Positions 3,269 to 31,475 of a DNA stretch of 35,783 nt are shown here, in pieces. Source of the DNA: Glaciihabitans sp. (GTDB taxonomy: Bacteria > Actinomycetota > Actinomycetes > Actinomycetales > Microbacteriaceae). The position numbers were made by a program, and so were the translations under genes. The notes below the pieces were generated by a model, which saw only the letters and a list, made by a program, of their open reading frames with translations, was not told the origin of the DNA and searched no databases. Every line of letters starts with the position of its first letter. The stretch's first letter is position 1. Where the stretch lies: positions 1 through 35,783 of the forward strand of contig JAODAO010000013.1 in assembly GCA_025463465.1 (NCBI GenBank). The letters run 5' to 3'.

Positions 3269-4609
3269 CTACTCGGGCGTACTGCGCACGAACGCGTCCC
3301 GCGGGCGCGTCATAGAGGTCAGCGGGCTGAGGCTCGGCCGGGACAGGGGGTTGGTAACCCAGCCCGCGACGATGAGCCATTTGCGCGACACGGTGGGCAT
3401 CGCCAGTGCGTGGTAACCGCGGTGCATCAGCCACGCCGGGAAACCGGTGACCTTGATCCCCCTGATGTTGGCGGCGCCACGCCCGACGCCATAGCTGGCC
3501 ACCGTTCCGAGCGACTTGTGCCGGTACACTTCCAGCGGTTTACCGTCGATGGCAGCGACGATGTTCCTCGCCATCATCTTCGCCTGGCGCAGGGCATTCT
3601 GCGCGTTCGGCGGATAGTACGCGGGTTGGCTGTCAGCGGTCAGGTCACGCACCTGTGCGTTGTCTCCCGCTGCCCACGCCGACTCATCGAGGCTGCCGTC
3701 CTCCCGCTGCACCCGGAAGGAGTTGTTCACAACCACGTGCCCTTTGGGGCCTCGGGGGATGTCTGTGTCATCGAGAACCGGGTTGGGCTTCACCCCCGCC
3801 GTCCAGACGATGGTCCCGGCCGGAATCTCGCTGCCGTCGCTGAGGACAACGTTGCCGTCGACACAGGATTTCATGGTCGTTTTGAAGCGGATGTCGATGC
3901 CGCGACGGCGCAACTCCCCTAATGTCCAGCGGGCAAGCTGTGGACCCACCTCCGGAGCGACCCGGTCGAGCATCTCCACCAGCACCCAGCGCAGTTCGTC
4001 CTGGCTGAGGTTGGGGTAGGTCTCGACCGCACGCTTGGAGAGATCGCTGAGCTCGGCGAGGGCTTCAACCCCGGTGTATCCGCCGCCGACGAAGACAAAG
4101 GTGAGCGCTTTGGCGCGCACGGCAGGGTCGCTGGTTTCAGCCGCGAGAGCGATTTGCTCGAGTACGTGGCTGCGAGCGAATACGGCCTCTTCCACCGTTT
4201 TGAAACCGACGCCCTCCTCGCGCAGCCCCGGGGTGGGGAAAGTTCGTGTCACGGCGCCGAGGCCGATCACTACGTGGTCGTAATGCAGCACGTGACGCTC
4301 CCCCGCCACCGTTTCGACGGTCGCCTCGCGGGAGGCACTGTTGATCGACGTGACGCTGCCCTGGATGACGTTGGTGTTTTTCAGTGCCTGCTGCAGGGGC
4401 ACGGTGACGTTGCTCGGGGCGACGTGCCCGCCGGCGACCTCGGGCAACAGGGGCTGGTATGTCATATAGCCGGTTGGCTCCACCAGGGTGATATCCATGG
4501 GGGTGCTGGCTAGGGCCTTCTCGAGGCCCCATGCCGTGTACAACCCGACGTACCCGCCGCCGACTATCAGCACGGCGGGTTTCGAGTCGCTGGTTGCGGA
4601 AACGGTCAT
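3269..4609 (-). CDS. Type II NADH dehydrogenase-like NAD(P)/FAD-dependent oxidoreductase
   Basis: VLIVGGGYVGLYTAWGLEKAL (FAD Rossmann), second motif FVFVGGGYTGVEALAEL, TIVWTAGVKPNP; ATG at 4609 preceded by GGGAGAG. Confidence 0.9.
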   Translation of the reverse strand: MTVSATSDSKPAVLIVGGGYVGLYTAWGLEKALASTPMDITLVEPTGYMTYQPLLPEVAGGHVAPSNVTVPLQQALKNTNVIQGSVTSINSASREATVETVAGERHVLHYDHVVIGLGAVTRTFPTPGLREEGVGFKTVEEAVFARSHVLEQIALAAETSDPAVRAKALTFVFVGGGYTGVEALAELSDLSKRAVETYPNLSQDELRWVLVEMLDRVAPEVGPQLARWTLGELRRRGIDIRFKTTMKSCVDGNVVLSDGSEIPAGTIVWTAGVKPNPVLDDTDIPRGPKGHVVVNNSFRVQREDGSLDESAWAAGDNAQVRDLTADSQPAYYPPNAQNALRQAKMMARNIVAAIDGKPLEVYRHKSLGTVASYGVGRGAANIRGIKVTGFPAWLMHRGYHALAMPTVSRKWLIVAGWVTNPLSRPSLSPLTSMTRPRDAFVRSTPE

Positions 4610-4731: not shown

Positions 4732-7700
4732 TCAGTGACGGATGCCGGCACTGCGGTGCTCGCGGATCCGGTTGATCAGGTCCTGCGTCTCGCCCTCGAG
4801 GGTGTCGCCGGGCATGTCGGCGAGCTGGGCGTTCAGCCGTGCGACGACCTGCTCGAATCCTTCGATGTTGTCGGCGAGGTCCTCGGCCCGCAGCCGGTCC
4901 CGGATCGGGATCTCACTCGCGGGGTCGATACGCTCTCCCACCAGCGCCGCGATGCGCGCCCCGGCGACATCCCCCTCGGCGAGAGACCTCTCCGCCAGTT
5001 CGTGGGCGGCGTCGACCACCTCGGCAACAAATCGCTCACGGTGGCCCTCGGCCCAGCCGTAGCGGCGACGGGGTACGTCGGCGAAGGGCTGGCCGGTGAC
5101 GAGTTTGACCGCGGCGAGCAATCGCTCGGTGGGGATGCTGGTGGGGTCGGAGCCGACGAGGGAGGAGAAGACGTCCCAGTCGCTGCGAACCGCGGGATGC
5201 AGGGCGTATCCGCCGGCGCCGTCGGCCAGCAGGAATGTCGCCCGCGGCTCTTCGGTCGCTGTGCCGAGCCACTGGCCCGTCCAGGCCGCGAGGGCATCGA
5301 GCTGGCCCGCCGGCACGGTGGCGCCCGGCCAGAGAGCTTCGTGGGTCTGACCTGCCGTTGCGCCGGGGTTCAAGGCGAGGAAGGCGAGGAGTTCGGTGGC
5401 GAGTGCGATCGAGGTGCGGCCGTCCGCGAGTGCCGCGGCGTTGCGAGCCCCATCCACACGAACCGACCCGAGGATCCGCACCATGGGCCCGGTCACCGTG
5501 AGGGGGTCGGTGTTCTCCGGAACCCGGCCAGCCTCGGCGAGCAGCCGCCGTTCCCAGTCGAGGGGCTCGGCGATGGTGTCCTCGTTGACGACAGTGTGGC
5601 TCGCGCTTGCGGTGGCCTGCGTCGGACGCTGGCGCGTTTCCTCATCAATCTCGGACACGTGGGTAACCGGGTTCACCGGCGACTGCTCGGATTCGCGCAG
5701 GCCCGTGAGGATGTTGGCGAGGTCGCTACCGACGACGGTTTGGGCGTTAAGAACGAGGCCAAGCGGATCCAGCCGTGCCGAGCGGTCGGCGGCGACGGTG
5801 AGCTTCCATCGTTCCGGGGTGCTCGGACCGGTGGAACCGTAGACAACGGATAGGCCCGGTATTGCCGACGCCAGCTGCAGGATGTCGGCGCGCGCGGCCT
5901 CGACGACGCCGTCTCCGAGCAACAGCACCTCGGCGTCCGGTGCGCCCGGAGTGAGTCGACTCGGCCGTTTCTGGGTGACTCCGGGGTCGACGCCGTCCGA
6001 GCTCACCGTCCCCACGCGGGCACGCAGGCGAGCGACCACGGTTTCGGCTTTTTCAGCCGCTATTACCCTGTCGGAATCGAGGACCGCGACCAATTCCGGA
6101 GCGACCCCCACAACGTTCACCCGCACACGCGTCGACCATGGGCTGCTCGCGAGGCCGAGTGCGAGGCCGACGAGCACTTCAGTGCTGGCTTCACTGCCAC
6201 CGGTGATCGCGAGGTCGCCGATGCGGTCGAGGTTGACCAGGAGCTGCCCACCACGCCCGTCGTCCCCGATAACGACCAGGGCAGGGTACGGCGATGCCGG
6301 CAGCTCTTCCACGTCACCGAACGCCGCAATGCGCGCCGACCATGCGGTTGACGGAGCCGTAGACGCGGCGAAGGGAGCGGAAAGTGTGCCCGCGACATCC
6401 AGCTGCACGTCGATGGTGTCAGCGGTGACCCGCGCGGCCAACACGGTGGGAAGCGCAGTGCCGGCGCGGTAGGCGGCGATGGCGATGCTTCGGAGGGCGC
6501 CGTCAACAGCGTGGAGGGCTGCGGCGTCGGCGATGGCGCGCAGTTCCGCCTCGGTGCTGGCGGCCGCACCGGTGGGCATCGTGATGCGCTGTCCGGCCTG
6601 GCGACGGCGACGCTGCTGGGCGCGACGCAACCCGAGCAGACCGAGGAGGCTGGCGGCCAGCAGGGCGCTGATCCCCCCGGCCGTCGCGATGGGAGAGGCG
6701 GCGACATTGCTGGCGAAGGTCACGTCGGCGGCGGGTGCCGCTGCCAGATCGGAGGCCGAGGTGGATGCCGTGACCGCGGTGGTCCCGGCCCCCTCGGGCG
6801 AGGGTGCGGGCGTCGCCGGTTCCGCCGCGGGCGCCGCAACGGGCTCACCAGCACCCGGGACGGTCACGTTCCAGCCGGGAAGAATCAGATTTGGGTCGCT
6901 CAGCTGGGTACCGCCCTGCTGGAGTGTGCTTTTCGACGCCTCGAAGATTTCCGGGTACCGGTCGCCAGAACCGAGCTCGTCCGCGGCGATGTCCCAAAGG
7001 GTGTCGCCCGCGGCGATGGTGACCTGTAGGTCGCTGGCGACAAGCTCTGCGGCCGGCGCTGCTGCCGGTGCTGCTGCCGGTGCGACTTCGGGCGCCGGTG
7101 CGCTGGCGTCGGCGGGCAGGTTCAGTATCCAGCCGCCGGCGAGCCAGTGGCTGTCGGCGCTGAGGGCGCCGCCGTCGGCCTGGTCGACGCCGTAGTTGAG
7201 CTGGGCGATCTCGGTGTACCTCTTGCCATCCCCGAGGCGTTCGCTGGCGATGCTCCACAGGGTGTCGCCGGCGTTGACCGTGTACTGCGGCAGCTGGTCG
7301 ACTCCGGCGGCCTCTGCCGCTTCATCCGCGGCGCTGGTGACCTGCTCGGCGACGTCGTTCGAGGAATCCTGGGACGCAGAGTACGACACCCCGGAGGACG
7401 CCGGGGCGCTGGTTGCGGTCGCGGCGGAGGCCGCACCGCCGAACGCGGTGAACATGATCACCACAGCGCCCAGCAGGGCAAATGCGGTGCGCTGCTGGAG
7501 GTGCAGGCCGGGAATGCGCGGTGGGCGGATGCCGCGCACGGCGGCGGGCAGGGTTATCAGGAGCGAGAACGCGAAGGAGCCCCACGCCAGCCAGGCGATG
7601 ATCGGCAGAAGGTTGCCGAGCAGGAACGTGCCGCCGAAGTCGGGCTGCGTTGCGGCATCTCCCCACTCTTCCCACGTGGGGATGGGGTTTCCGGCCACCG

Positions 7701-7779
7701 TGAGCAGCAGGACCGGAATGCCAACCACAACGGCGGCGAGCACAACGATGGAGGCGATGCCGGTGAGGAATCTCTTCAT
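4732..7779 (-). CDS. Membrane protein with two LysM domains and a C-terminal SARP/BTAD-like winged-helix region
   Basis: N-terminal TM segments; QYTVNAGDTLWSIASERLGDGKRYTEIAQLN and QVTIAAGDTLWDIAADELGSGDRYPEIFEAS (LysM); TM ISALLAASLLGLLGLRR; C-terminal VRILGSVRVDG...TELLAFLALNPGATAGQTHEALWPG...WDVFSSLVG (SARP-like). Confidence 0.85.
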   Translation of the reverse strand: MKRFLTGIASIVVLAAVVVGIPVLLLTVAGNPIPTWEEWGDAATQPDFGGTFLLGNLLPIIAWLAWGSFAFSLLITLPAAVRGIRPPRIPGLHLQQRTAFALLGAVVIMFTAFGGAASAATATSAPASSGVSYSASQDSSNDVAEQVTSAADEAAEAAGVDQLPQYTVNAGDTLWSIASERLGDGKRYTEIAQLNYGVDQADGGALSADSHWLAGGWILNLPADASAPAPEVAPAAAPAAAPAAELVASDLQVTIAAGDTLWDIAADELGSGDRYPEIFEASKSTLQQGGTQLSDPNLILPGWNVTVPGAGEPVAAPAAEPATPAPSPEGAGTTAVTASTSASDLAAAPAADVTFASNVAASPIATAGGISALLAASLLGLLGLRRAQQRRRRQAGQRITMPTGAAASTEAELRAIADAAALHAVDGALRSIAIAAYRAGTALPTVLAARVTADTIDVQLDVAGTLSAPFAASTAPSTAWSARIAAFGDVEELPASPYPALVVIGDDGRGGQLLVNLDRIGDLAITGGSEASTEVLVGLALGLASSPWSTRVRVNVVGVAPELVAVLDSDRVIAAEKAETVVARLRARVGTVSSDGVDPGVTQKRPSRLTPGAPDAEVLLLGDGVVEAARADILQLASAIPGLSVVYGSTGPSTPERWKLTVAADRSARLDPLGLVLNAQTVVGSDLANILTGLRESEQSPVNPVTHVSEIDEETRQRPTQATASASHTVVNEDTIAEPLDWERRLLAEAGRVPENTDPLTVTGPMVRILGSVRVDGARNAAALADGRTSIALATELLAFLALNPGATAGQTHEALWPGATVPAGQLDALAAWTGQWLGTATEEPRATFLLADGAGGYALHPAVRSDWDVFSSLVGSDPTSIPTERLLAAVKLVTGQPFADVPRRRYGWAEGHRERFVAEVVDAAHELAERSLAEGDVAGARIAALVGERIDPASEIPIRDRLRAEDLADNIEGFEQVVARLNAQLADMPGDTLEGETQDLINRIREHRSAGIRH

Positions 7780-7816: not shown

Positions 7817-8851
7817 TCAGTTGCCCACGTTGACGGACTGCAGTTCGCGCACCTCGAGGGAGGTGGTGCTGGCACGGGTGACGGTCTGGGAGCCGACCAC
7901 ACCGTTGGCGTTCCAACTCACTGTCCACTGGCTGGTCGCGGTGATCGGGAAGCGACCGTCACCCGAACCTGTTGAGGCGGTCGCGTAGCGGTGACCGCAG
8001 GTGGGAGAGTCCGTGAATCCGAGCCCGGCGCTATACACGGTGCCCGTTCCGCTGCAGTTGACGATGCTGCCGTCGCCCATGTCCCATTGCACAGAGCCAA
8101 CCTCGGCTCGCATGGTCAGGAAAACCCCGCCGAGCGTCAGGTTGATGTCATAAGGACCGAAGGTGAGGGGCTGGGGGTTGTCCACCCACATCCACACAGG
8201 GACCCCGACGAAGGCGCGGGCTCCTGATGTCAGCGAATCGGGCGTAATGCCGATCGAGATGCCCTCCAGTTCGAAAGATGCCAGTGCGCGTGCTACAGCC
8301 TGGCCGGGAGTGAGCGTATCTACACCCGGCGGTGCCGTGTTGAGCCAGACGTTTGTCAGCACGCAGGGGCCCACGAACCCGGCGATGGCGTAACAGTAGT
8401 TGGCGCACTGGTAGAGGGCACCGAACTCGGACTTCCCGGGCGGCGTGGTCTCCGGTTGCTGCGCCGACAGCTTGTAGTAGCAACCGTCATAGTTGCTCCA
8501 CCAGCCAAAGTCCGCCGAGGTGCAGGGCACATCATGCTCGATGTTGTCCAAACCGATGGCGATGCATTTGTCTGGCCCGGGGCTGAGCCCAGTGCCAGGG
8601 TTCGCCCCGATCGTGTCACCGGTTTCGCCGGGGACGACGATTTCGCCTCCGCAGGACGGTCTGCAGTCCCCCGGTACGATGATGGTCGACCCTCCGGCCG
8701 CCGGTTGGTCCTGAGTGACCGTCGCGGCTGCGCGCACCGCCGAAGCCGATGTCGCCGGACCAGCAATACATGTCACGCTGAGTACGACAAGCAACCCCAG
8801 TAGCATCAGTGCGCGGGCTGAAATCCGCTCCGTTGCGACCGTGCTCAGCAC
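7817..8851 (-). CDS. Cys-rich secreted protein of Tad locus, unknown function
   Basis: 344 aa, GTG start, signal peptide (LMLLGLLVVLSVTCIAGPATSASA), about 10 Cys in the mature part, PKD-like VQWDMGDGS...GHRYATAS; overlaps the preceding ORF stop by a few nt. Confidence 0.75.
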   Translation of the reverse strand: MLSTVATERISARALMLLGLLVVLSVTCIAGPATSASAVRAAATVTQDQPAAGGSTIIVPGDCRPSCGGEIVVPGETGDTIGANPGTGLSPGPDKCIAIGLDNIEHDVPCTSADFGWWSNYDGCYYKLSAQQPETTPPGKSEFGALYQCANYCYAIAGFVGPCVLTNVWLNTAPPGVDTLTPGQAVARALASFELEGISIGITPDSLTSGARAFVGVPVWMWVDNPQPLTFGPYDINLTLGGVFLTMRAEVGSVQWDMGDGSIVNCSGTGTVYSAGLGFTDSPTCGHRYATASTGSGDGRFPITATSQWTVSWNANGVVGSQTVTRASTTSLEVRELQSVNVGN

Positions 8852-9586: not shown

Positions 9587-10012
9587 TTAGCCGTCGATCA
9601 GTCGGGCCGATCCGGTGCCCTCACCGCTCAGGGTCTCAATGCCGATGAGCCCTAAAAACACCGTGTTGTAGGTCACGGATGTGGTGACGGTGACGGTGTT
9701 GTCGGTCGCTGTGACGTTGCCCGTTAAGCCGGCAGCGGCAAGCTGCCCCTGGGCGGCAGCCACTGCAGCCGGCCGGTTCAACTGCACGGTTCCGGTGGCG
9801 ATGGCCTCCCCGGTCAGGGAGTTGGTCGCGAAACGAGCCGCTGACTGCGCCACCTGGCTTGCCCGCTCCGCCGCCTGCACCTTGCCGGAGCCGTCGACGA
9901 CGAGACCCATAAACAGGATCAGCGCGACAACGAGAATGATCAGCGGCAGGGTGATGCTGCCGCGTTCAGGGTCCTCCGCCGTGATCCTTCTTTTCCGCTG
10001 TGCCATGGTCAT
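9587..10012 (-). CDS. TadG/TadE-like pseudopilin
   Basis: ERGSITLPLIILVVALILFMGLVVDGSGKVQAAERASQVAQSAARFA; ATGA overlap with upstream gene. Confidence 0.8.
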   Translation of the reverse strand: MTMAQRKRRITAEDPERGSITLPLIILVVALILFMGLVVDGSGKVQAAERASQVAQSAARFATNSLTGEAIATGTVQLNRPAAVAAAQGQLAAAGLTGNVTATDNTVTVTTSVTYNTVFLGLIGIETLSGEGTGSARLIDG

Positions 10013-10473
10013 GATCGCTGCCGATACGGGTCGACGGGACTGGTAGCGTCCCGGGAGATTTCGGTAGTACCCGGCAGGCCGGGAAGGCCGGCGTCGGACA
10101 GGTTCACGGTGCAGCGCACGGTCGCGGTGACCGAACCGGTGGTGCCGATTGCCTTGTCGAACTCCGAGGTGTTGATGGTCACCGACGAGGGCGAGCAGGT
10201 GACCCCGTTACTGTTCAGCGAGAAGTTGGCGGCTTCGCGACCGAGGGCCTCCGCCTGCCCAACGGTTCTGGCGAGGGTGGCCTCCCGGGCTGCGGCGTAG
10301 GCGGCACCCTGGACAGCATTGCCCGCCACAGCGACCCGGCCACCGACGATGAGTACACCAATGAACAGGACCAGCGGTACAGCCCAGATGGTGAGTTCGA
10401 GGGTGGTTGAGCCGCGCTCGCTGTCGCTTTTGCGATGAGCGCGATTCAACCGGGTGTAGATACAACGCATCAC
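10009..10473 (-). CDS. TadE family pseudopilin
   Basis: SERGSTTLELTIWAVPLVLFIGVLIVGGRVAVAGNAVQGAAYAAAREA; ATGA overlap with upstream gene. Confidence 0.85.
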   Translation of the reverse strand: MMRCIYTRLNRAHRKSDSERGSTTLELTIWAVPLVLFIGVLIVGGRVAVAGNAVQGAAYAAAREATLARTVGQAEALGREAANFSLNSNGVTCSPSSVTINTSEFDKAIGTTGSVTATVRCTVNLSDAGLPGLPGTTEISRDATSPVDPYRQRS

Positions 10474-10892
10474 GGGGCGATATACCTTTCCACCGGGCCG
10501 GAGACCGTTTCGGACAGGGCAGAACCGGGCCAGCCGCGGGCCACCATGGCCGTATTACCGGTAACCGTCACCACGACGGTGGTGGCGGAACGGGTCACAA
10601 GCACGTTCGGGTTGGCGACAACCGTCCCGCTGTTGCCAAGCGACTCGTAGCCCTGGGCGGTGCCGTCGGCGGCGCTGCCGTTATACAGTCGCGCTTCATA
10701 GAATGCGGCGGTCGCTGCGGCGTGCGCAACGTCCCTGGCGTGGAACCACATTGCTGCCTGGAAGAACCCGAAGATGAACAGCAGCACCACGGGCCAGATG
10801 ATGATGTTCTCCAGCGATGCGGAACCACGCTCACGATCCAGGCGGCGCGAGCGCGCGCCGGAGGTGTCGTTGTGCGCGGTCGGCTGGTACAT
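10470..10892 (-). CDS. TadE family pseudopilin
   Basis: DRERGSASLENIIIWPVVLLFIFGFFQAAMWFHARDVAHAAATAAFYEAR. Confidence 0.85.
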   Translation of the reverse strand: MYQPTAHNDTSGARSRRLDRERGSASLENIIIWPVVLLFIFGFFQAAMWFHARDVAHAAATAAFYEARLYNGSAADGTAQGYESLGNSGTVVANPNVLVTRSATTVVVTVTGNTAMVARGWPGSALSETVSGPVERYIAP

Positions 10893-10928: not shown

Positions 10929-11156
10929 CTAGTTGATCTGCAGCTCCGAGGTCTTGTTGGCGATGAACGTGGTGACAACACCGACGCAGATCAGTGCGGC
11001 GGCGGCGATGGCGACGGTCCAGATGATCTGCTCGAGCGACAGCGACCCGCGCTCGGCGGCGACGCGGTTGGCGTAGCTGCGGCGGTCGTTGGCCAGCGAG
11101 AACAGGGTGCGGGCGGAGGAGACAATGTGCACGTACAGGGCGATCAGGGTGTTCAT
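10929..11156 (-). CDS. Flp-like pilin with long leader
   Basis: 75 aa: ...AAERGSLSLEQIIWTVAIAAAALICVGVVTTFIANKTSELQIN; AAGGAAT upstream of ATG. Confidence 0.75.
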   Translation of the reverse strand: MNTLIALYVHIVSSARTLFSLANDRRSYANRVAAERGSLSLEQIIWTVAIAAAALICVGVVTTFIANKTSELQIN

Positions 11157-11218: not shown

Positions 11219-12106
11219 CTAGCTCGCAACGAGATTGAGAAGTGGTGGGGTGGCGAGCATGGCCATAAACACGATGCCGAGGAGTGCCTGGGGGTAGGTC
11301 ATCCGCTCGCTGAGCCGGTTGGCGAGGGTGTGCTCCTCGTTTAGGAGTTGCACACGCAGGGCCTTGCCGCGAGCCCGGAGGCTTTCATACACGGCCGCGC
11401 CTTCTTCACCGCTGAGACGCATGATGTCGGCGACATCGGCAAGCTCCTTTACGCCGATTTCCTCGGACAGGTGGCGCAGGGCCTCCCACGGCTGAACGCC
11501 GGAGAACCGGGCCCGCAGCAGTTCCTGCCGGATACGTTCGAACACCCAGGACTCCCCCACGCTGGCCGCTTCCTCCAGCGCGACACCGGCCGGGGCCCCG
11601 CGCTTGCGTTCGGCGGCGACTAGTTCGAGGTAGGCGGCAATGGCGCGGGAGAACTCCTGGCGTGCCTCGAGCGCCTGCTGCTTGACCATGGAGTCGGCCA
11701 CAACGAGCATGACCAGGGCAAGGGGGATGGCGGCGATGCCGGTAATCCCAAAGATGAAGGGAGACAGCCCGAACGCCCAGAACGCCAGCGATAGGATCGC
11801 CGGGGTGACCAGCCCGAGGAGGACGAGGGTGAGTTTTTGGGCGTAGTAGGTCTGCGTTGACCGGTTGAGGATCAGCAGGTCAGCGACGGGGGCGGTGAAG
11901 CCGGGAAAGTCGGAGAGGTTGCGCTGGGCCCAGCTGCCCATCCGTGCTTCGAAGTTGCTGCCCTCGTTCGACTCGAGTACCTCTGTGCTGCCGAGGCGTT
12001 CGAGCGCCGCGGAGAGTTTGGGCTGCTTCGGGGCGAGTTCCGCGATCAGCAGGGTGATACCAACACCGCCGAGGGCGCCGACGACGAGAAGGATTTGCCA
12101 CATCAT
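11219..12106 (-). CDS. tadC: Type II secretion system F family protein, TadC-like
   Basis: Membrane protein with GAPAGVALEEAASVGESWVFERIRQEL...GVQPWEALRHLSEEIGVKELADVADIM. Confidence 0.85.
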   Translation of the reverse strand: MMWQILLVVGALGGVGITLLIAELAPKQPKLSAALERLGSTEVLESNEGSNFEARMGSWAQRNLSDFPGFTAPVADLLILNRSTQTYYAQKLTLVLLGLVTPAILSLAFWAFGLSPFIFGITGIAAIPLALVMLVVADSMVKQQALEARQEFSRAIAAYLELVAAERKRGAPAGVALEEAASVGESWVFERIRQELLRARFSGVQPWEALRHLSEEIGVKELADVADIMRLSGEEGAAVYESLRARGKALRVQLLNEEHTLANRLSERMTYPQALLGIVFMAMLATPPLLNLVAS

Positions 12107-12108
12107 CC

Positions 12109-12978
12109 TCAGCCACGCTCCTTTCGAGTGTTGACCAGGATGCGCGGGGTCGGCGTTCCGACGCTCATCCTGCGCATCCAGATCAGGGCTGCGACGTAAA
12201 GGGTGAGGTAGAGAGCGAGCAGGAGCTGGCCGAGGCCTCCGCGGTAGGCGTCGAGGAAGCTTCCCGATAGCGCGAGGGCTCCGATGGCCACCACGGTGAC
12301 CAGGGTGATCGATCGCGCGGTGGTGCGCGGCTTCTCGCGGTCAGTTTCAATCTCGCGGCGGTGGCGTACCTCGTCGAATACGATCTGGGCGAGGTCGTCG
12401 AGGGCGTTGGCGAGGCCGGCGCCGCGGACCCGTGAGGCCAGGATGAGGTGGGCGGTGACGAGGTCGGCCGTTGGGTCGTTGAGTTCGTCGGCGAAGACCT
12501 GCAGCGCCCTGGTGGTGGACCAGCGTGCGTTGATCCTGGCGACCATGTTGGAGACCTCGGGTTTGATCGGCTCCGGGGTGTTCGACAGCGACACCGTCAG
12601 TGCCTGCTCGAGGCCAACACCGGCGGTGATCAGGCCGGACAGGCTCCTGGTCCACGATTCGATCGCCTCGAGCCGCTCGATTCCGCTCGCGGCCTGGGGC
12701 TTGGCGAGGAGAACGGGCAGGCCGATAACGGCCACCGGCACGGCAACCAGGGCGATGATCCAGCCCGTGAGGTACCAAACGACAACACCCCCAACAACAC
12801 CGGCGGCGATCAGTAACAGGCGCTGCCGCGGCACGGTCGCACGCAGCCGGGTGATGCGGCGCGCGATCAGCCCGGGCGGCTTTGGTCCCTCGTCAATCGG
12901 CGGGAACAGGCCAACGAAGACCAGCAGGATGCCAAACCCGAGCACCATGATGGTCAACGCGATGAATGTGGGGGTCAC
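12109..12978 (-). CDS. tadB: Type II secretion system F family protein, TadB-like
   Basis: ALEAIESWTRSLSGLITAGVGLEQALTVS-type T2SSF region; GTG at 12978 forms a GTGA overlap with the tadA stop. Confidence 0.85.
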   Translation of the reverse strand: MTPTFIALTIMVLGFGILLVFVGLFPPIDEGPKPPGLIARRITRLRATVPRQRLLLIAAGVVGGVVVWYLTGWIIALVAVPVAVIGLPVLLAKPQAASGIERLEAIESWTRSLSGLITAGVGLEQALTVSLSNTPEPIKPEVSNMVARINARWSTTRALQVFADELNDPTADLVTAHLILASRVRGAGLANALDDLAQIVFDEVRHRREIETDREKPRTTARSITLVTVVAIGALALSGSFLDAYRGGLGQLLLALYLTLYVAALIWMRRMSVGTPTPRILVNTRKERG

Positions 12979-14570
12979 GACTCGACGTTCCCGTCGGGCA
13001 GCAGCCACTTGCTGTCGAATCCGGCGCCCTCGAGGTCAACGAGGGTGTCGACCTGGGGGCGACCGACGAGGTTCGCGGTGTCACTTCCCGCCGCTGCCTT
13101 GAAGATTTGCAGCACCACGGGACGTTTGGTCTCCCCCGGCACCAGCTCGCTGATCTCGCTGACAAAACGCTTCAGCGTCCTGCCGCCGTCGAGGTGGTTG
13201 GTCAACTGGACAACAAAGTCGATGTGCTGGCCGATCTGGGCGTAACCGAAGTCGCTCGCCGCTCCGAGCTTTTGACTGAGAAGAACCGCCATACGCTCGA
13301 CGGCGTCCGCCGGCGAGTTGGCATGCAGGGTGCTCATCGACCCGGCACCGGACTGCATGGCCTGCAGCATCGCGGTGATTTCCGGTCCACGAACCTCACC
13401 GACGATGATGCGCTGGGTGTTCATACGCAGGGTCTCGACGAGCATCTCCTCGAGGGTGACTTCTCCGGGCCGGCTCCCGTCCGCGGCGGGTTCCCCCTGT
13501 CCGGGGCGAGCCTCGAGCGGGGTCACCAGGGGGTGCAGCCCGCTGCGGTCGAGGTGCAACTCGCGCTCGGTCTCGATCGTCACGATGTGCTCGAGCGGCT
13601 CAATTCGGTGGGCGAGGGCGCGCAGCAGCGTGGTTTTCCCCGCGCCCTGCTGGCCGGCGACAACGATCGACTTACGTGCGCGAACGGCAGCGGTGAGAAA
13701 TTCGTTGGCTGCCTGGGTCATGGTGCCGCGGGCGACCAGGTCCTCCAGCGTGATCGTCACCATCGGGTGGCGTCGGATGATGACCGTCGGCCGCGGGGCG
13801 ATGGGCGGGTGGGTGGCCTGCAGGCGCTCACCGCTGGGCAACGAGAGGCTGAGCTTCCACGCCGAGGCGCTGAAGGGACGGCCACGTTCGCCATCGCGCG
13901 AGGCGAGGAACTGGATGTCTTCGATCAGCTGCTGGTCGGAATCGGCGATCGGCGGGCGCTGTTCGATCTCTCCCCCGCCGTAATCGACGTAAACCTTGTC
14001 GTATCCGAACACCATCACGTTTTCGACCCGGGGGTCGTCCACGTGCTGCTGGAGACGGCCGAGCCGGAAGAGCGAGTCGTAAATGGCCTTCTGCATCCGG
14101 AGGACCTGGTTCTCGTCCCACGGGTCCTGCCCACGGCGCACGAGGGCGTCGACGTGGTCGCGAGTGACCTGCACGATCTGGGTGCGCCCAACCTCCAGGC
14201 GGGCCTCGCCGTCGAGGGTGTCGTCCGCCGCGATGGCGGTGGAGAGCCGATTGGAGACATCGGCGCGGAAGGCGCTGACCAGTGCCCAGTCCAGCTCACC
14301 GTCTGGGGTGGTCGAGCGGCCGCGCGACGGGAGGCGCACCTGGGTGGTGTCGGTGCTCGCCGGCTCCGGGGCGATGAATTCCGGGACGCCAGACACGGGG
14401 GCGCTCGGTTGCGCGGCGCTGACAGCCGCCATCATGTGGGCCGGAATCTCAGCGGCAAGGTGGGCGCCGGAGGTACCGCCGGTGGGAGCGGTGACAACTT
14501 CGGTGTCGCCGAAGAGCGGGAGGTTGTCGAAGTCGAGGGTGGGGGTGGCGTCTGGTTCTGGCTGGGTCAT
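12975..14570 (-). CDS. tadA: TadA/CpaF-type secretion ATPase
   Basis: Walker A VVAGQQGAGKTTLLRALAHRIEP; RIIVGEVRGPEITAMLQAMQSGAGSMSTLHANSPADAVERM. Confidence 0.95.
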   Translation of the reverse strand: MTQPEPDATPTLDFDNLPLFGDTEVVTAPTGGTSGAHLAAEIPAHMMAAVSAAQPSAPVSGVPEFIAPEPASTDTTQVRLPSRGRSTTPDGELDWALVSAFRADVSNRLSTAIAADDTLDGEARLEVGRTQIVQVTRDHVDALVRRGQDPWDENQVLRMQKAIYDSLFRLGRLQQHVDDPRVENVMVFGYDKVYVDYGGGEIEQRPPIADSDQQLIEDIQFLASRDGERGRPFSASAWKLSLSLPSGERLQATHPPIAPRPTVIIRRHPMVTITLEDLVARGTMTQAANEFLTAAVRARKSIVVAGQQGAGKTTLLRALAHRIEPLEHIVTIETERELHLDRSGLHPLVTPLEARPGQGEPAADGSRPGEVTLEEMLVETLRMNTQRIIVGEVRGPEITAMLQAMQSGAGSMSTLHANSPADAVERMAVLLSQKLGAASDFGYAQIGQHIDFVVQLTNHLDGGRTLKRFVSEISELVPGETKRPVVLQIFKAAAGSDTANLVGRPQVDTLVDLEGAGFDSKWLLPDGNVES

Positions 14571-15394
14571 CGCGATGACTCCTTTTCCGTGCCGAAGTTC
14601 TGGTCGAGGCGGCTGCGCTGCTCGGCGAGTTCGTTACGGACACTGTCAATCGCGGAAACGAGGGAGGCGCCGAATTTTGTTTTGTTGAACTTCTTCACCC
14701 CGGGTTCCCCGAGGGAAAACACCGCGGCGGTTTTGTCGTCCCAGGAGATGCGTACGCTGCGCTGGGTGCCGAGCGCCTTGTGGATTTCGCCGGATGACAG
14801 CTGCGGGCCTGAACCCGTTTCCACGAGGACAAGCGTGACGCTGTTGGCGCGGCCGGCGGCGGCGAGTTCCGTCCGGATTGCGGGCAGTCGCTTGTGGACG
14901 GCAACGATGTCGGGGAGGGTCGGCCGGGCGACGATCAGCACGGCATCGGAGTTGCGCATCAGCGCGGACCGTGTGTCGCCGATCGCCCACCGGCCGGCGT
15001 CGAAGATGACGTCCATTGCCATTCCCTCGAAGCTGGCCGCTGCCGTGCCGAGCTGGCCCCAGATTGGGTCCATCGCCCGGGCCGCCGCCGGATCCTTAAA
15101 CCCGGCGAGCAGCCGTCGCTCGACGGAGTCGCCGGTGTTCTCCACCAGGTCGATCGTCTGCGCCCAGACCTGGTTGATGTCGAGCGATCCGGAGTTGTGG
15201 GTGGTCACCGGCAGTTCACCGATCCCCCGAGTATGGGCGATCTGGCCGCGGAAGAATCCGGGCAGCACACTGCTGTATCGGGACGAGTCCGCCTCGATCA
15301 GCATGACCGCCTGCGGCCAGTGCAGCGCCATCGCGAGCGCCGTTGTGCTGACTCCCGGGGAGCCCGCGACGCTGAGCATGAGGATGTTCGACAC
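14567..15394 (-). CDS. TadZ/CpaE-like MinD-superfamily protein with non-canonical P-loop
   Basis: MSNILMLSVAGSPGVSTTALAMALHWPQAVMLIEADSSRYSSVLPGFF; ATGA overlap with tadA. Confidence 0.8.
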   Translation of the reverse strand: MSNILMLSVAGSPGVSTTALAMALHWPQAVMLIEADSSRYSSVLPGFFRGQIAHTRGIGELPVTTHNSGSLDINQVWAQTIDLVENTGDSVERRLLAGFKDPAAARAMDPIWGQLGTAAASFEGMAMDVIFDAGRWAIGDTRSALMRNSDAVLIVARPTLPDIVAVHKRLPAIRTELAAAGRANSVTLVLVETGSGPQLSSGEIHKALGTQRSVRISWDDKTAAVFSLGEPGVKKFNKTKFGASLVSAIDSVRNELAEQRSRLDQNFGTEKESSR

Positions 15395-15397
15395 GGG

Positions 15398-16162
15398 TTA
15401 GCCGTCCGTCTCGTCGTCCACGGCGGCACCCGCGGCGTCGAGGGGATCGAGGATAAGCGCGACACGTCCGGTGGCGGCGCGGGCGGCCAGCAGCGCTGCG
15501 CGCTCCGACGGGACGGTGACGGCGACGATGGTCGTGCCGGCGACATCGTCGGTGCGGACGGAAACGATTTCGGCAGATTCCGTGACGGGGGCTTTCGTCG
15601 GCGGCTCACCCTGGCTGACGGGGGTGTCGACGAGTCGTACCTTGTCGCCGCTGACAAGCGGGAACGGCGGCAACTGGGCCGAGGTCAGCGACAGGCCCAC
15701 GATCGACATACCGGTGTCGATGCCGGCGCCTTCTGAGACGTTGGCTGGCGAAAGCAGCGTTCCGGCAGGGATGTCCACCTGGGCGGTTTTGCCCTCGACA
15801 TCGTCCGTGTCTGCGCGCTCGAAGGATGGAATTTCATTGGTGTCGGGAATTTCCACAACCTGCAGCGAGCCCAGCTCGATGACGTCTCCGCGGGCGATAT
15901 CGGACGCCGCGGAGTACACCAGCTTGGTGCGGCCCGTCGAGGTGTAGATGTAGGCGGCAGTCAACCCGGACACGATGATCAACGCGATGCCGAGCAGGAT
16001 GATGGGAAGGCGCGGCTTGTTGCGCACACGCGACTGCACCGGAGCCGACTTCGGGGTGGAGGGCTTAGGGGTCTTGGCGACCTTAGCCGGCTTGGCGGAG
16101 CCGTCGGCGCTTTTTCCACTGCCGCGCCGGGGGCGCTCTTTTTCTACATCGGCGGTGGTCAT
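15398..16162 (-). CDS. SAF-domain/CpaB-like pilus assembly protein
   Basis: Single TM LPIILLGIALIIVSGLTAAYIY followed by ARGDVIELGSLQVVEIP...GKTAQVDIPAGTLLSPANVSEG (SAF). Confidence 0.85.
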   Translation of the reverse strand: MTTADVEKERPRRGSGKSADGSAKPAKVAKTPKPSTPKSAPVQSRVRNKPRLPIILLGIALIIVSGLTAAYIYTSTGRTKLVYSAASDIARGDVIELGSLQVVEIPDTNEIPSFERADTDDVEGKTAQVDIPAGTLLSPANVSEGAGIDTGMSIVGLSLTSAQLPPFPLVSGDKVRLVDTPVSQGEPPTKAPVTESAEIVSVRTDDVAGTTIVAVTVPSERAALLAARAATGRVALILDPLDAAGAAVDDETDG

Positions 16163-25333: not shown

Positions 25334-27418
25334 ATGGCAGCCGGTACGTCCGCCGAACAGGAATCACAGCGCTATCTCGCCAGGGCGGATGCACATCATC
25401 TCGCCGCAATCGCTGACCATGAGGCTGCGGAACGGTACCGGATCGCGGCCGTCACGGAGAAGAGCGTTGCAAGAACACTCTCGCCGCTCGCAGCAGCGGG
25501 CTACCATCTGCTTGCTGACCGACGCTGGCCGGGAAGCCGAACGGCCCAGGTCGACCTCATCGTTGTGGGGCCAACCGGTGTTTTCATCGTCGACACCAAA
25601 GCATGGCGCGAAGTGTCTATCGAGGGCGACCGCATTTTTCGTGGCCAGGACGACGTCAGCGATGAACTCGCCAACCTCGCCGATCTCGGTTATGGCACTG
25701 CTGCCGCAATGGCCGAAATTGGTCTTGCTCCCGGCGAGATCCACTCCGTGGTGGCACTCGCCGGCCGTTCCGGCATTAACGCACACGTGGGCACGGTCGA
25801 GGTAGTCGGGGAAAGGGACGTTCTCCGGCACATCACCAAGCTTTCCCCTCGCCTGACACCGAGCCAGGTAGACCTGGTGGTGCGCAGCGCCATGGACCAT
25901 TTCCCGCTGCTCGGCGCCCCGGTGCCCGTTTCGGTCACCATCGCTGAACCAGTCCTGGCAGCCCTCGCCATCGGATTCGACGACAGCGATCTTCCTACGG
26001 ATGAGGAAGTAAGCAGCGCGTTGTTGGCCGGTATTCTCGCTGAACCGATCGAAGAGTGGATGTCGTTCCTCCATCCGGAGCAGGCAAAGTTGGTGCGTCG
26101 AAGTTTCAACGGTCCCTCCCGGATCCGGGGCGCAGCCGGAACGGGAAAGACTGTCGTCGCACTTCACCGCGCTGCTTACCTCGCACGGTCAAAACCCGGC
26201 AGTGTTTTGGTCACAACGTATGTCAGGACGCTGCCAGCAGTGTTGTCGTCCCTGCTGAATCGAATGGCACCCGACGTTAGTGGGCGAGTGATATTCACGG
26301 GTGTTCATGCGTTCGCGAGCGCACTCCTAGCCGAACGCGGCGTCAACGTTCGCGTCGATCGCCGTGCCTCTGATCTCGCCTTCGCCTCCGCGTGGAAGTC
26401 CATAGGTGAGCACGGCTTACTGGGACGTATCGACCACAACCCTCGCTATTGGAAAGAGGAGGTCGACAGCGTGATCAAGGGCCGTGGGATCACCACTCTT
26501 GAGCAATACAACGAGCTCGCACGCACAGGCCGACGACGACGGCTCTCTCTGGACCAGCGGCGGGAAGTTTGGGCGCTTTACCGCGAGTACACCGCGTTCA
26601 TGTCCAAGAGCGGCGCGCACGACTTCGCAGACCTGATTTCGCTCGCGGCTTCATCCTTGGCGGAAACTCCACTCGAGGGATACTGTGCGGTCATTGTCGA
26701 TGAGGCTCAGGATCTCTCCTCGATGATGATCAAGATGCTGCACTCCATCGTCGGCAACGCGCCGGACGGCATGACCTTGGTGGGCGACGGCCAGCAGACC
26801 ATCTACCCGGGTGGCTACACCCTGTCGGAAGTGGGAGTATCGCTGGCGGGTCGCGGTGTGGTGATGACGACGAATTATCGCAACACCAAAGAGATCATCG
26901 AGTTCGCCGCGGGAATAGTCGCTGGCGATGAGTACACGGATATCGAAGGCGCGGCCGCAACAGGAGACGACATCCAGCGGGTTGAGCGATCCGGGGAAAC
27001 CCCCTCATCGACCGTTTTTTCTTCGAAGCGAGCTCACGACGCTGCGCTCGTCGATCGGATAAATAGTGCGCTGCGCGAGGTCGGAACCAATTACGGAGAT
27101 ATAGGGGTGCTATCCCTGTTTGGGTATTCCGTTTCTGACACGCTGGCCGTGCTCCATCGCGAAGGCATCCCGACCATAGAGATGGACAAATACACGGGCG
27201 CCCCGATCAACGCGGTCAAGGTCGGCACGATCAAAAGGTCGAAGGGCCTCGAGTTCAAGCAAGTGCTTGTTTCCCGGGTACCGCGAACACTTGTGGACGC
27301 CACCCCACGCCCACCGGGTAGCGACGATGCCTGGCAGGAAACGTGGGAGTTGCAACGCCGGGAGCTTTACGTTGCAATGACCCGCGCACGCGACGGCCTG
27401 TGGATTGGAGCGGTCTAA
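25334..27418 (+). CDS. NERD nuclease-related domain fused to UvrD/SF1-like helicase
   Basis: NERD-like AQVDLIVVGPTGVFIVDTKAW; helicase motifs RIRGAAGTGKTVVALHRAAYLA, VIVDEAQDLS, LVGDGQQTIYPGGY, TTNYRNTKEI, KRSKGLEFKQVLV, RRELYVAMTRARDGLWIG. Confidence 0.92.
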   Translation: MAAGTSAEQESQRYLARADAHHLAAIADHEAAERYRIAAVTEKSVARTLSPLAAAGYHLLADRRWPGSRTAQVDLIVVGPTGVFIVDTKAWREVSIEGDRIFRGQDDVSDELANLADLGYGTAAAMAEIGLAPGEIHSVVALAGRSGINAHVGTVEVVGERDVLRHITKLSPRLTPSQVDLVVRSAMDHFPLLGAPVPVSVTIAEPVLAALAIGFDDSDLPTDEEVSSALLAGILAEPIEEWMSFLHPEQAKLVRRSFNGPSRIRGAAGTGKTVVALHRAAYLARSKPGSVLVTTYVRTLPAVLSSLLNRMAPDVSGRVIFTGVHAFASALLAERGVNVRVDRRASDLAFASAWKSIGEHGLLGRIDHNPRYWKEEVDSVIKGRGITTLEQYNELARTGRRRRLSLDQRREVWALYREYTAFMSKSGAHDFADLISLAASSLAETPLEGYCAVIVDEAQDLSSMMIKMLHSIVGNAPDGMTLVGDGQQTIYPGGYTLSEVGVSLAGRGVVMTTNYRNTKEIIEFAAGIVAGDEYTDIEGAAATGDDIQRVERSGETPSSTVFSSKRAHDAALVDRINSALREVGTNYGDIGVLSLFGYSVSDTLAVLHREGIPTIEMDKYTGAPINAVKVGTIKRSKGLEFKQVLVSRVPRTLVDATPRPPGSDDAWQETWELQRRELYVAMTRARDGLWIGAV

Positions 27419-27491: not shown

Positions 27492-29183
27492 ATGACGACG
27501 CGCAAACGACTCCTTGCTGTTTCAGCCGTGGCCCTTGTCACCTTAACCGGCCTCAGTGCCTGCACCCCGCCTCGTGAGGACTCCGCTCCGCCGGACGCCA
27601 AAGAGATCAGGCTCTCCGCTCCGGCGACACCGTTGACCGCGATAACGGATGCGGACGAGAGAACCGCGTCATTGACGACCAGCAGGGAGCTGTTCGACGC
27701 ATCGCCGGCGGTGGTCATCGCGCCCGCCGGTGAACCAAAGACCCAGTATCTCGCCGCGTTGGCGGCTGTCGGGCTCGGCGTCCCCCTCCTGATCTCGAAT
27801 GACACCGCCGAGGAATCCACCGAACCAGCCAGCAGCCCGTCAGCGGAGCAAAGTTCCGCCCCCGCGGACGCGCTCGCGGACGAGATCGCTCGCTTGGGCG
27901 CGACCTCGGTCCTCGCGGTCGGCGATGTCAGTACGGCTTACAACTTTGCCGGAGCCGACGGCGACGATGCCAAGGTTGTCCGAATCGAAGCCGACGCGTC
28001 CGCCATCACAGACGCCACCGGCGTCCCGATGGATGCACTCGCCACCGACGACCCCGCCAGGTACCCGACAGCTATCGCCGGGCTCACCGCCGGGACCCCG
28101 GACCATGAGCCCTCCGACAACGTGCCGGACTTCGCACCCGCTGCACCGCTGACCGATACGGTTGTGCTCGCCGTTGACGCCGCACCTCAGCTTGCTTCGC
28201 TGGCCACGGCCAGGTCCGCTGGGGTCGCGCTGGCGCTGGTGCCCGCCGACAACGCCAATCCCCAGGCGTCGGCCACCGCGATTAGTGCTTTACACGGTGC
28301 CGCCGCGGCGAACACGATGGCCATCGGTGCGGAGTTTGCCACCCAGGAGGACCTGGACTGGAAACTACGCTCTGCAGCCTCAGGTTTCGCCCTGCCCGGT
28401 GGAGGACAGCTGCTGTTCCCCGAGCATCAGTTTGTTGCTCTCTACGGCACCCCGGGCACGGGATCCCTCGGAGTCCTCGGCGAGCAGGATGCCGCCGGCG
28501 CCGTACAGCGCACCACGGACATGGCGGCGACCTACCAGCCGCTGACCGACAAATCCGTTGTGCCGATGTTCGAGATCATTGCCACTGTCGCCGCCGGGGA
28601 CGCCGGTCCCGACGGGAATTATTCGAATGAGCTGGATCCGGCGAAACTACGCCCCTGGATCGACGCCGCCAGTGAGGCAGGCATTTATGTGGTGCTCGAC
28701 CTGCAGCCTGGACGAACCGATTTCCTCACCCAGGCCAAACAGTATGAATCACTGCTGGCGCTGCCCAACGTTGGTCTCGCCATCGACCCGGAATGGCGGC
28801 TCGCCGCCGATCAGGTTCCCCTGCGCCAGATCGGCTCAGTCGGCGCGGCCGAGGTCAATTCGGTCACCGAATGGCTCGCCGACCTCACAAACAAGAACGG
28901 GCTCCCGCAGAAGATGTTCGTGCTGCACCAGTTCCAGCTGCGGATGCTGCAGGACCGCACCGCCATCAACACCGGCCACCCCGAACTCGCCATGGCGATT
29001 CACGCCGACGGGCAGGGAAGCCAACCCGACAAACAGGCGACCTGGCGAGCTCTCCACCAGGATGCTCCGGCCAACATCGCGTGGGGATGGAAGAACTTCT
29101 ACGACGAGGACACCCCCATGCTCACCCCCGAGCAAACCATGGGGGATGTCAGCCCGCTACCCGACCTGATCACCTACCAATAG
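27492..29183 (+). CDS. Secreted lipoprotein-like protein with degenerate cell wall-binding repeat-2-like region and C-terminal barrel-like domain
   Basis: Lipobox-like LTGLSACTPP; YLAALAAVGLGVPLLISN...DEIARLGATSVLAVGDVS resembles CW_binding_2; C-terminal VVPMFEIIATVAAGDAG...YVVLDLQPGRTDFLTQAKQYESLLALPNVGLAIDPEWRL. Confidence 0.75.
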   Translation: MTTRKRLLAVSAVALVTLTGLSACTPPREDSAPPDAKEIRLSAPATPLTAITDADERTASLTTSRELFDASPAVVIAPAGEPKTQYLAALAAVGLGVPLLISNDTAEESTEPASSPSAEQSSAPADALADEIARLGATSVLAVGDVSTAYNFAGADGDDAKVVRIEADASAITDATGVPMDALATDDPARYPTAIAGLTAGTPDHEPSDNVPDFAPAAPLTDTVVLAVDAAPQLASLATARSAGVALALVPADNANPQASATAISALHGAAAANTMAIGAEFATQEDLDWKLRSAASGFALPGGGQLLFPEHQFVALYGTPGTGSLGVLGEQDAAGAVQRTTDMAATYQPLTDKSVVPMFEIIATVAAGDAGPDGNYSNELDPAKLRPWIDAASEAGIYVVLDLQPGRTDFLTQAKQYESLLALPNVGLAIDPEWRLAADQVPLRQIGSVGAAEVNSVTEWLADLTNKNGLPQKMFVLHQFQLRMLQDRTAINTGHPELAMAIHADGQGSQPDKQATWRALHQDAPANIAWGWKNFYDEDTPMLTPEQTMGDVSPLPDLITYQ

Positions 29184-29416: not shown

Positions 29417-30085
29417 GTGCTCACCGTTGTTATTCCCTGGCGCGCCCAGCCCTCCCGCCAGTCAGCCTTCGACGCGGTTGTCGCCTGGTACGAGGCGAAC
29501 CTTCCCGGTGTGCAAATCCTGACGATCGACTCGCCCGAGCCGGTTTTCAACCTGGCCCGCTGCCGCAACCTCGGTATGCGCAGCGTCATCGACCAGGGCG
29601 AGGTTGTGGTGATCAATGACGCCGACACCATCCCCCAGCTCGCACCCCTTCGTGAGGCGATCCGCGCCGCCGCCACCTCCGGCCTCGTCCATCTCCCCTA
29701 TACCGAGTACCGCTGGCTCGGCGCTGAGGGCACCGCCCAGTACGCCGACGACCGCGAGCTCATTGGCTGCGATTTCACGCTGGTTCGCGGTGCTTGCTCA
29801 GGTGTTTACGTGACCACGCCGGCCACCTGGTGGAGCCACAATGGCCAGGACGAGCGCTTCCGCGGCTGGGGGTTCGAGGATGCAGCGTGGAACGTCGCCC
29901 ATGAGACCCTGCTCGGCGCTGCCCCGCAGCGCCACGGGGGCCACGTCTACGCACTGCACCACGAACCGCAGCTTCGTGAGGGACCGCAGTACGACGCGAA
30001 CGCCGAGCTGATGGCCCAGTACCGCAGTGCGGTCGCGGATCCTGCCGCCATGCGCCAATTCGTTTTCCCCGCCGCAATCGAATAA
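29417..30085 (+). CDS. Glycosyltransferase (galactosyltransferase-related, GT2-like)
   Basis: VVIPWRAQPSRQSAFDAVVAWYEANLPGVQIL...FNLARCRNLGMRSV...VVVINDADTIP...FRGWGFEDAAWNVA. Confidence 0.85.
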   Translation: MLTVVIPWRAQPSRQSAFDAVVAWYEANLPGVQILTIDSPEPVFNLARCRNLGMRSVIDQGEVVVINDADTIPQLAPLREAIRAAATSGLVHLPYTEYRWLGAEGTAQYADDRELIGCDFTLVRGACSGVYVTTPATWWSHNGQDERFRGWGFEDAAWNVAHETLLGAAPQRHGGHVYALHHEPQLREGPQYDANAELMAQYRSAVADPAAMRQFVFPAAIE

Positions 30086-30158: not shown

Positions 30159-31475
30159 TTGCGCATTGTCTGCATCGGCGATATCGGCGTCACCAACAGA
30201 ATCATCCACATCGGCGACGAGGCGATGTTTGACGAGATGGTCACCCAGTTGCGCCGCCGCGGAGTCAACGAGATCGTTGGCCTGTCCTCCGACCCGGAGG
30301 AATCCGCGGCCCGCTACAGCATCAGGGCGATCCGCCGCATCGGTTTCTGCAACACCGCCGACACAACGCGTGCCACCGCCGAGGCCCGAATGGACAAGGT
30401 CCTCCGCTCCGCCCAGGGTGTCACCAACCTGCTGGCCAGCAATGACCCGGCCTGGGCCGTCATCGACGCCGTCCGCTCCAGTGATGGTGTCGCCATCGCC
30501 GGTGGTGGCAACCTCGCCTCAACCTGGCCGACCCACATCTTCGAACGAGTCACCTTTGGCGCTCTCGCCCGCCTATTCAGCAAGCCGCTGGTTGTGAGCG
30601 GCCAGACACTGGGGCCGTACCTTTCTCCGGAAGACGAGACCCTCGTCGCCCAGCTACTGAACAGCGCAAGTATGGTCGGCCTGCGCGAGCGCCCCTCCTA
30701 CGACTACGCCCTGCGCCTCGGAATCCCTGAAGCCAAGATCAGCCACACCGTCGACGATGCCAGCTTCCTCGGAATCGACGTTTTCGATGGCACCTCCACG
30801 GTTCACGCTGCCAACAACGCGGCAGAACAGGGGGATGTCGTCGAGCCCCTTCTACCCGAGGACCCCTACTGCGTGGTGTCTCTCGCCGGCCACATCAACG
30901 GGGAAGACCCGGATCTGTTCGCCACCCGGATGGCTGAACTGCTCGACCACGTCGCCACCAGCACAGGCCTCGACATCGTCTTCTTCGCCCATTGGGGATC
31001 CACCGATGCCGCCGTCTCCGCCGGGGATACCCCCGTGCACGAGCGTGTCCAAGCCAGAATGACGGCGCCGTTCAGCACGGTCGTCCCGACCATGTCGGTG
31101 GGTGCCGCCACCCTGGCTCGCAACGCCGCGCTGTCCATCAGCCTGCGCTACCACCCGGCCGTTTTCGCCGTTTCAGCCAGCGTCCCCACCATCGGCATCG
31201 CCGTCGACGACTACACCACCACCAAGCTCACCGGCGCCCTCGGCAACTTCGGCCAGTCGTCCGTGCTGCCGTTGGCATCGCTGCTCGCGGGCGAAGGCGC
31301 CGGCCTAGTCGACTTCGTGTGGGCGTCCCGCGCGGCGATCGCGGAAGCGGGTGCCGCCCTCGCACCCGAGAAACGCCAAGGCTCAGCCCAGTGGTGGGAG
31401 AGCGTCGCCGCAACCTTCACCGGACCGACCGGTGACGGCCCGACCCCACCGCTGGTGCGCCGCCAGCTGATCTGA
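30159..31475 (+). CDS. Polysaccharide pyruvyl transferase family protein
   Basis: TTG start with GGAG upstream; MRIVCIGDIGVTNRIIHIGDEAMFDEMV..., VAIAGGGNLASTWPTHIFER, VVSGQTLGPYLSPEDETLVAQLLNSASMVGLRERPSYDYA. Confidence 0.88.
   Translation: MRIVCIGDIGVTNRIIHIGDEAMFDEMVTQLRRRGVNEIVGLSSDPEESAARYSIRAIRRIGFCNTADTTRATAEARMDKVLRSAQGVTNLLASNDPAWAVIDAVRSSDGVAIAGGGNLASTWPTHIFERVTFGALARLFSKPLVVSGQTLGPYLSPEDETLVAQLLNSASMVGLRERPSYDYALRLGIPEAKISHTVDDASFLGIDVFDGTSTVHAANNAAEQGDVVEPLLPEDPYCVVSLAGHINGEDPDLFATRMAELLDHVATSTGLDIVFFAHWGSTDAAVSAGDTPVHERVQARMTAPFSTVVPTMSVGAATLARNAALSISLRYHPAVFAVSASVPTIGIAVDDYTTTKLTGALGNFGQSSVLPLASLLAGEGAGLVDFVWASRAAIAEAGAALAPEKRQGSAQWWESVAATFTGPTGDGPTPPLVRRQLI

Follow-up and report, generated by a model that had tools for sequence, protein, structure and literature searches.

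What might a protein that joins LysM domains, membrane-spanning segments and a SARP/BTAD region in a single chain do at the end of a Tad pilus operon? The question is raised by a gene in a 35,783-nucleotide stretch of a Glaciihabitans sp. genome, hereafter called the window, whose product we term the LysM-SARP protein (Table 1). A first-pass annotation of this DNA had interpreted the protein as a one-component sensor of the envelope with a link to pilus assembly. We know of no described mechanism by which monoderm Tad machines are anchored to the cell wall.

Domain organization and predicted topology

The LysM-SARP reading frame begins with an ATG at position 7779 and is uninterrupted, and the frame is open further upstream to a GTG at 7902. 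Pfam, NCBIfam, hydropathy and AlphaFold/Foldseek analyses confirm the domains that the first-pass annotation had assigned to the protein, namely N-terminal TM helices, two LysM domains, a further TM helix and a SARP/BTAD C terminus. That description was accurate; a large domain occupying residues 398-706 had been overlooked. A TAPR1-like match and other sub-threshold Pfam matches were set aside as chance.

All 15 family members compared (the window protein and 14 relatives) have the same pattern of four TM helices with positive-inside charges. On this pattern, the N terminus is predicted to lie inside, the LysM domains outside and the C terminus inside, so that the LysM and SARP regions would reside on opposite sides of the membrane, as the first-pass annotation had proposed. 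Directly after TM4 is a strongly basic stretch that carries the motif RRxxQxRRRxxGxRIxMP, which is conserved in the family alignment. The LysM domains would presumably bind peptidoglycan.

Table 1. Positions of the LysM-SARP gene, its domains and the other Tad operon genes in the window
Feature	Coordinates	Strand	Description or basis
LysM-SARP gene	4732..7779	-	TM3 - LysM2 - TM - pseudo-FtsK - SARP (wHTH+BTAD), 1015 aa
Three N-terminal TM helices (residues ~8-26, 52-78, 99-117)	7429..7758	-	Hydropathy and positive-inside
LysM1 (residues ~164-226), predicted extracytoplasmic	7102..7290	-	Pfam PF01476, E 5.6e-8 (match spans residues 166-199)
LysM2 (residues 252-308), predicted extracytoplasmic	6856..7026	-	NCBIfam PRK11198 / SafA-type LysM matches
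TM4 (residues 364-382)	6634..6690	-	Hydropathy and positive-inside
Predicted pseudo-FtsK/EccC-like domain (residues 398-706), no Walker A	5662..6588	-	AF2 and Foldseek
SARP module: winged helix (~residues 757-876) and BTAD/TPR-like bundle (~877-1015)	4735..5511	-	AF2 and Foldseek
Recognition-helix equivalent, residues 826-838 (QLDALAAWTGQWL)	5266..5304	-	Alignment to AfsR
CpaB/RcpC-like SAF protein, first operon gene	15398..16162	-	Pfam SAF 5.5e-8
TadZ/CpaE-like	14567..15394	-	NCBIfam TIGR03815 4.3e-4
TadA ATPase	12975..14570	-	Pfam T2SSE 6.4e-29; NCBIfam TIGR03819 2.2e-52
TadB (T2SSF)	12109..13008	-	T2SSF match
TadC (T2SSF)	11219..12106	-	T2SSF match
Flp pilin, 75 aa, type IV prepilin-like site ERG/SLSLEQ	10929..11156	-	tblastn match to Flp of relatives
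TadE-like pseudopilin	10470..10892	-	Pfam PF07811 1e-8
TadE-like pseudopilin	10009..10473	-	Pfam PF07811 8.9e-7
TadG-like (Tad domain)	9587..10012	-	Pfam PF13400 7.3e-8
Lipoprotein-like protein, 225 aa	8845..9522	-	NCBIfam, loci of relatives
Conserved secreted/exported hypothetical protein, 344 aa	7817..8851	-	Homologues at equivalent place in relatives

A probably inactive FtsK-like domain

Residues 398-706 have no detectable Pfam match and no significant match to any family, and PDB sequence searches with the middle and C-terminal domains returned no convincing match; structure prediction alone resolved both. An AlphaFold2 model of the middle domain, built from 19 sequences (pLDDT 79.4, pTM 0.80), was compared with known structures by using Foldseek. 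The top matches, at modest TM-scores of about 0.3-0.5 and with high rmsd, are nearly all to the FtsK/EccC/TcpA superfamily and include FtsK motor domains (E 4.7e-8, probability 1.00), EccC (1.1e-6) and the conjugation coupling protein TcpA. The domain is therefore predicted to adopt a RecA-like motor fold of the FtsK/EccC type. Its likeness to these motors lies in the predicted fold; it differs from them in being a single domain that lacks a Walker A motif and is not detected by Pfam. Because the motif is absent from all 38 family members, the domain is most likely non-catalytic, that is, a pseudo-ATPase, and we reject the idea of an active ATPase.

Genomic contexts of the family

The LysM-SARP gene is indeed located at the end of a Tad pilus operon. 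The operon is intact, runs from 16162 to 4732 entirely on the minus strand, and has the order CpaB/SAF, TadZ, TadA, TadB, TadC, Flp, TadE, TadE, TadG, lipoprotein, hypothetical protein and, as the last gene, LysM-SARP.

The family is widespread in Actinobacteria. A search for related loci with the LysM-SARP protein as a single query found nothing, and the alignment was built from 5 sequences, a set of 15 being too divergent. With tblastn, the protein was detected on 209 PLSDB plasmids, for which the genera listed are all actinobacterial; many of the plasmids inspected are linear. The same tad gene order is present on 13 inspected plasmids, with an A24 prepilin peptidase gene next on many of them, and in the tad contexts examined the LysM-SARP gene is at or near the end of the structural operon. 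Among 36 plasmid and genome-contig loci, 33 contain at least three tad genes and 29 contain a prepilin peptidase gene, so the linkage to tad genes is conserved. At two Arthrobacter loci the LysM-SARP gene adjoins a prepilin peptidase gene, and tad genes were not detected within 10 kb.

One relative was tabulated in 2013. PAGK_2369, encoded in the tad locus of the Cutibacterium acnes plasmid pIMPLE, combines LysM and BTAD in one protein and follows the TadE/G genes, as in the window; in the available text of that report it is a table line labelled TadB (PMC3666418). The homologue on C. acnes p11-79 aligns with the window protein over its full length. The pseudo-FtsK domain, the topology and the link to type VII secretion go undescribed in that text, and literature searches yielded no description of the LysM/pseudo-FtsK/SARP family as characterized in this work.

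Association with type VII secretion genes

A profile search detected the pseudo-FtsK domain in 43 of 148 class genomes. In 60 loci fetched from across the class, the domain is fused to SARP in 57; at least three tad genes are nearby in 41, an EccC gene in 19, and both in 7. The 12 loci with EccC and fewer than three tad genes nearby include one at a contig edge with TadE. Where EccC assignments were checked, they correspond to NCBIfam EssC matches of 1e-135 to 1e-189.

Several arrangements recur. At five loci (L091-L094 and L097), the order is tad, LysM-pseudo-FtsK-SARP, EccC, with co-directional genes and gaps of about 0.6-0.7 kb. At nine loci from one actinobacterial family (L099-L102, L104, L107, L111, L112 and L115), EccC precedes the LysM/pseudo-FtsK/SARP gene and the fetched flanks hold no tad genes. 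Two chromosomal loci (L062 and L063) have tad genes followed by a SARP-less LysM-pseudo-FtsK protein, a WXG100 gene (Pfam 6.6e-18) and EccC; SARP-less copies also occur at two other loci (L013 and L064). The genome that contains the window has, on another contig (C14, 7770-13186), a gene for a 308-amino-acid TM and pseudo-FtsK protein directly upstream of a 1498-amino-acid EccC-type ATPase, the start of which it overlaps, with a WXG100 gene nearby (4202-4495). This paralogue has independent support (E 1.7e-12 and 3e-4); its scores against an alignment that contains the paralogue itself are circular and were excluded as evidence.

The family is thus not restricted to tad loci, and a Tad-specific sensor is rejected because EccC loci exist whose fetched flanks are devoid of tad genes. 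We argue from co-directional, close placement alone that the EccC adjacency may exceed chance. Because relatives adjoin either Tad genes or type VII secretion genes, the LysM/pseudo-FtsK protein may be an adaptor common to both machines. In Bacillota, T7SSg and T7SSh loci have been described beside Tad loci, and there, in the available text, the authors are unsure whether the adjacency is coincidental and leave the functional link as an open question (PMC11217815). The actinobacterial loci share this adjacency and differ in having the LysM/pseudo-FtsK protein between or beside the two gene sets, a protein that is absent from the Bacillota components reported in that text.

The SARP module and its DNA-contact residues

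An AlphaFold2 model of residues 757-1015 (pLDDT 90, pTM 0.86) matches AfsR (8k60/8hvr; E 3.6e-6) over both the winged helix and BTAD, and also EmbR (E 1.6e-4), each over about 270 columns. BTAD falls below the Pfam cut-off in the window protein (E 0.039) and reaches significance in relatives, with 5 matches among 15 (best 5e-10). The model therefore confirms, at the level of predicted structure, the winged helix that had been proposed for the C terminus and the complete SARP fold of winged helix plus BTAD. The fold in common with AfsR and EmbR extends over the C-terminal 259 residues (TM about 0.6, 20-22% identity) and concerns the SARP module only; in the window protein this module is predicted to be membrane-tethered behind LysM and pseudo-FtsK domains, and it lacks Arg94-type contacts. 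A SARP domain on a membrane protein would call for a different reading of the annotation "BTAD transcriptional regulator" on actinobacterial plasmids. In the same genome, contig C182 carries an open frame of ~463 amino acids that matches BTAD strongly (1.9e-23) and includes an AfsR-like region. The apparently split SARP genes of two other loci (L065 and L066), each of which resembles a single gene with a disrupted frame, were left out of the analysis.

The DNA contacts of AfsR include W74, R87, T88, S91, R92, R94 and K95 (PMC10936776). With residue numbering fixed by the AfsR sequence itself, the window copy has A/W/G/Q at the positions of S91/R92/R94/K95 and retains the Trp equivalent to W74. 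Arg occupies the position equivalent to Arg94 in 68 of 77 distinct relatives, Arg or Lys that of Arg92 in 50, and Trp that of Trp74 in 63. Because Arg94 is kept so widely and is replaced by Gly in the window, DNA binding by the SARP module is a plausible property of the family but a doubtful one of the window copy.

These residues bear on whether the protein is a membrane-tethered one-component regulator, in which the LysM domains would sense the state of the wall and relay it by way of TM4 and the pseudo-ATPase. The SARP module would receive this signal and switch on tad or plasmid genes, much as tethered winged helices of the CadC/ToxR type do. The predicted topology, the complete SARP fold, the AfsR match over both of its parts and the linkage to tad genes all agree with such a sensor, and for the family at large the idea stays viable because the Arg94 equivalent is so widely retained. 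However, the recognition helix of the window copy has lost the AfsR contact residues, which makes a transcription sensor, possible for the family, a weaker proposal here. In addition, SARP-less members are present in tad loci, others lie in type VII loci whose fetched flanks have no tad genes, SARP-box-like direct repeats were not in excess upstream of the 27 operons scanned, and on two annotated plasmids a separate small winged-helix gene directly precedes the operon. On balance, we regard the regulator as somewhat unlikely; of the first-pass sensor proposal, the topology, fold and linkage hold, and the sensor role is a conjecture.

A proposed wall-anchored adaptor

We favor a role for the LysM-SARP protein as an envelope-spanning, wall-anchored adaptor or scaffold of the Tad machine, with SARP as an accessory module, and consider this proposal about evenly poised between right and wrong. 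Outside the membrane, the two LysM domains would hold the protein to peptidoglycan. Inside, the dead FtsK/EccC-like domain and the SARP-fold module would bind cytoplasmic partners, probably the ATPases of the machine or a partnered FtsK/EccC-type ATPase, and the BTAD half of the SARP module would act as a TPR-like docking bundle.

SARP-less members keep the LysM-TM-pseudo-FtsK arrangement in chromosomal Tad loci, which suggests that the core function is independent of SARP. Because the SARP module is dispensable in some tad loci, and because the window copy keeps the fold while having lost the DNA contacts, docking fits better than operator recognition. The loci with EccC next to a member and fetched flanks free of Tad genes likewise fit an adaptor used by two machines. 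What counts against a role as an adaptor only is the wide conservation of the SARP fold and its contact residues, a pattern not readily accounted for if DNA binding were irrelevant throughout; the SARP modules of many relatives may bind DNA as well.

By analogy, the protein might work like FimV/HubP without belonging to that group. FimV and HubP are LysM-TM-TPR polar organizers that bind peptidoglycan (PMC12918733). By prediction, the window protein would resemble them in its extracytoplasmic LysM, a TM segment, a cytoplasmic part that ends in a TPR-like bundle, and a tie to surface machines. The window protein differs in having four TMs, two LysMs, a pseudo-ATPase and a winged helix; no sequence relation was found, and the NCBIfam scan gave no FimV-domain match.

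A bolder extension of the adaptor proposal is that Tad pili and type VII-type secretion ATPases are linked machines in Actinobacteria. In this view the family, anchored in the wall, would dock to the pilus base an ATPase of the EccC/FtsK type or, in the case of plasmids, perhaps a coupling ATPase of conjugation, and SARP would report the state of assembly to transcription where DNA contacts are kept. We put this forward tentatively and think it rather improbable in its entirety. In Micrococcus luteus, transformation requires an FtsK/SpoIIIE-type ATPase that directly adjoins the chromosomal tad-1 cluster (PMC8467076), a hint at cooperation between FtsK-type ATPases and Tad machines.

A possible role in plasmid conjugation

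Many family members are carried by plasmids, and the Tad operon and LysM-SARP protein might instead serve mating contact or DNA transfer, with the pseudo-FtsK domain pairing with the coupling ATPase of the plasmid. Of the 20 plasmids that match best, at least 14 also carry a TcpC-type T4SS gene, and LysM-SARP and TcpC-type genes have nearly identical counts per genus. This co-occurrence is a correlation, and plasmids that are related do not count as independent cases. T4SS genes adjoin the operon on Microbacterium, Curtobacterium, Clavibacter, Xylanimonas and C. acnes plasmids, and the match of the pseudo-FtsK fold to TcpA is in keeping with such a pairing. A later study of C. acnes found a tad-encoded pilin at the surface and appendages by EM, and its authors raised, and left open, the question of whether plasmid Tad pili are tied to conjugation (PMC5696575). 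However, many members reside on chromosomes without a detected T4SS gene in the vicinity, and no relaxase or T4SS gene was recognized in the window. We consider a dedicated role in conjugation unlikely. The occurrence of one conserved protein in Tad, Tad-plus-T7SS and T7SS loci makes this question testable, together with that of the link between Tad and type VII loci.

Integrity of the window operon

The contig is placed in its MAG (86.6% complete, 6.2% contaminated) by similar GC (0.652, compared with 0.632-0.666 on four other stretches) and by a flanking AlkZ-like protein with 51-56% identity to same-genus genomes. That the operon is a decaying, non-working chromosomal remnant of a horizontally acquired plasmid Tad island is improbable: the contig has no detected prepilin peptidase or ParA gene, the MAG no Peptidase_A24 match, the SARP contacts are lost and 24 same-family genomes yielded no homologue, but all tad ORFs are intact, the Flp prepilin site is plausible, Cryobacterium chromosomal loci likewise have no prepilin peptidase next door, and the MAG is incomplete.

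Elsewhere in the window, a 694-amino-acid NERD-domain UvrD-like helicase is encoded at 25334-27418 on the plus strand. Two unnamed ORFs (27492-29183 and 29417-30085) precede a polysaccharide pyruvyl transferase gene (30159-31475), with which they look like a glycan gene group. A 504-amino-acid serine beta-lactamase-family protein (Pfam 4.9e-43) is encoded at 31985-33499 on the minus strand.
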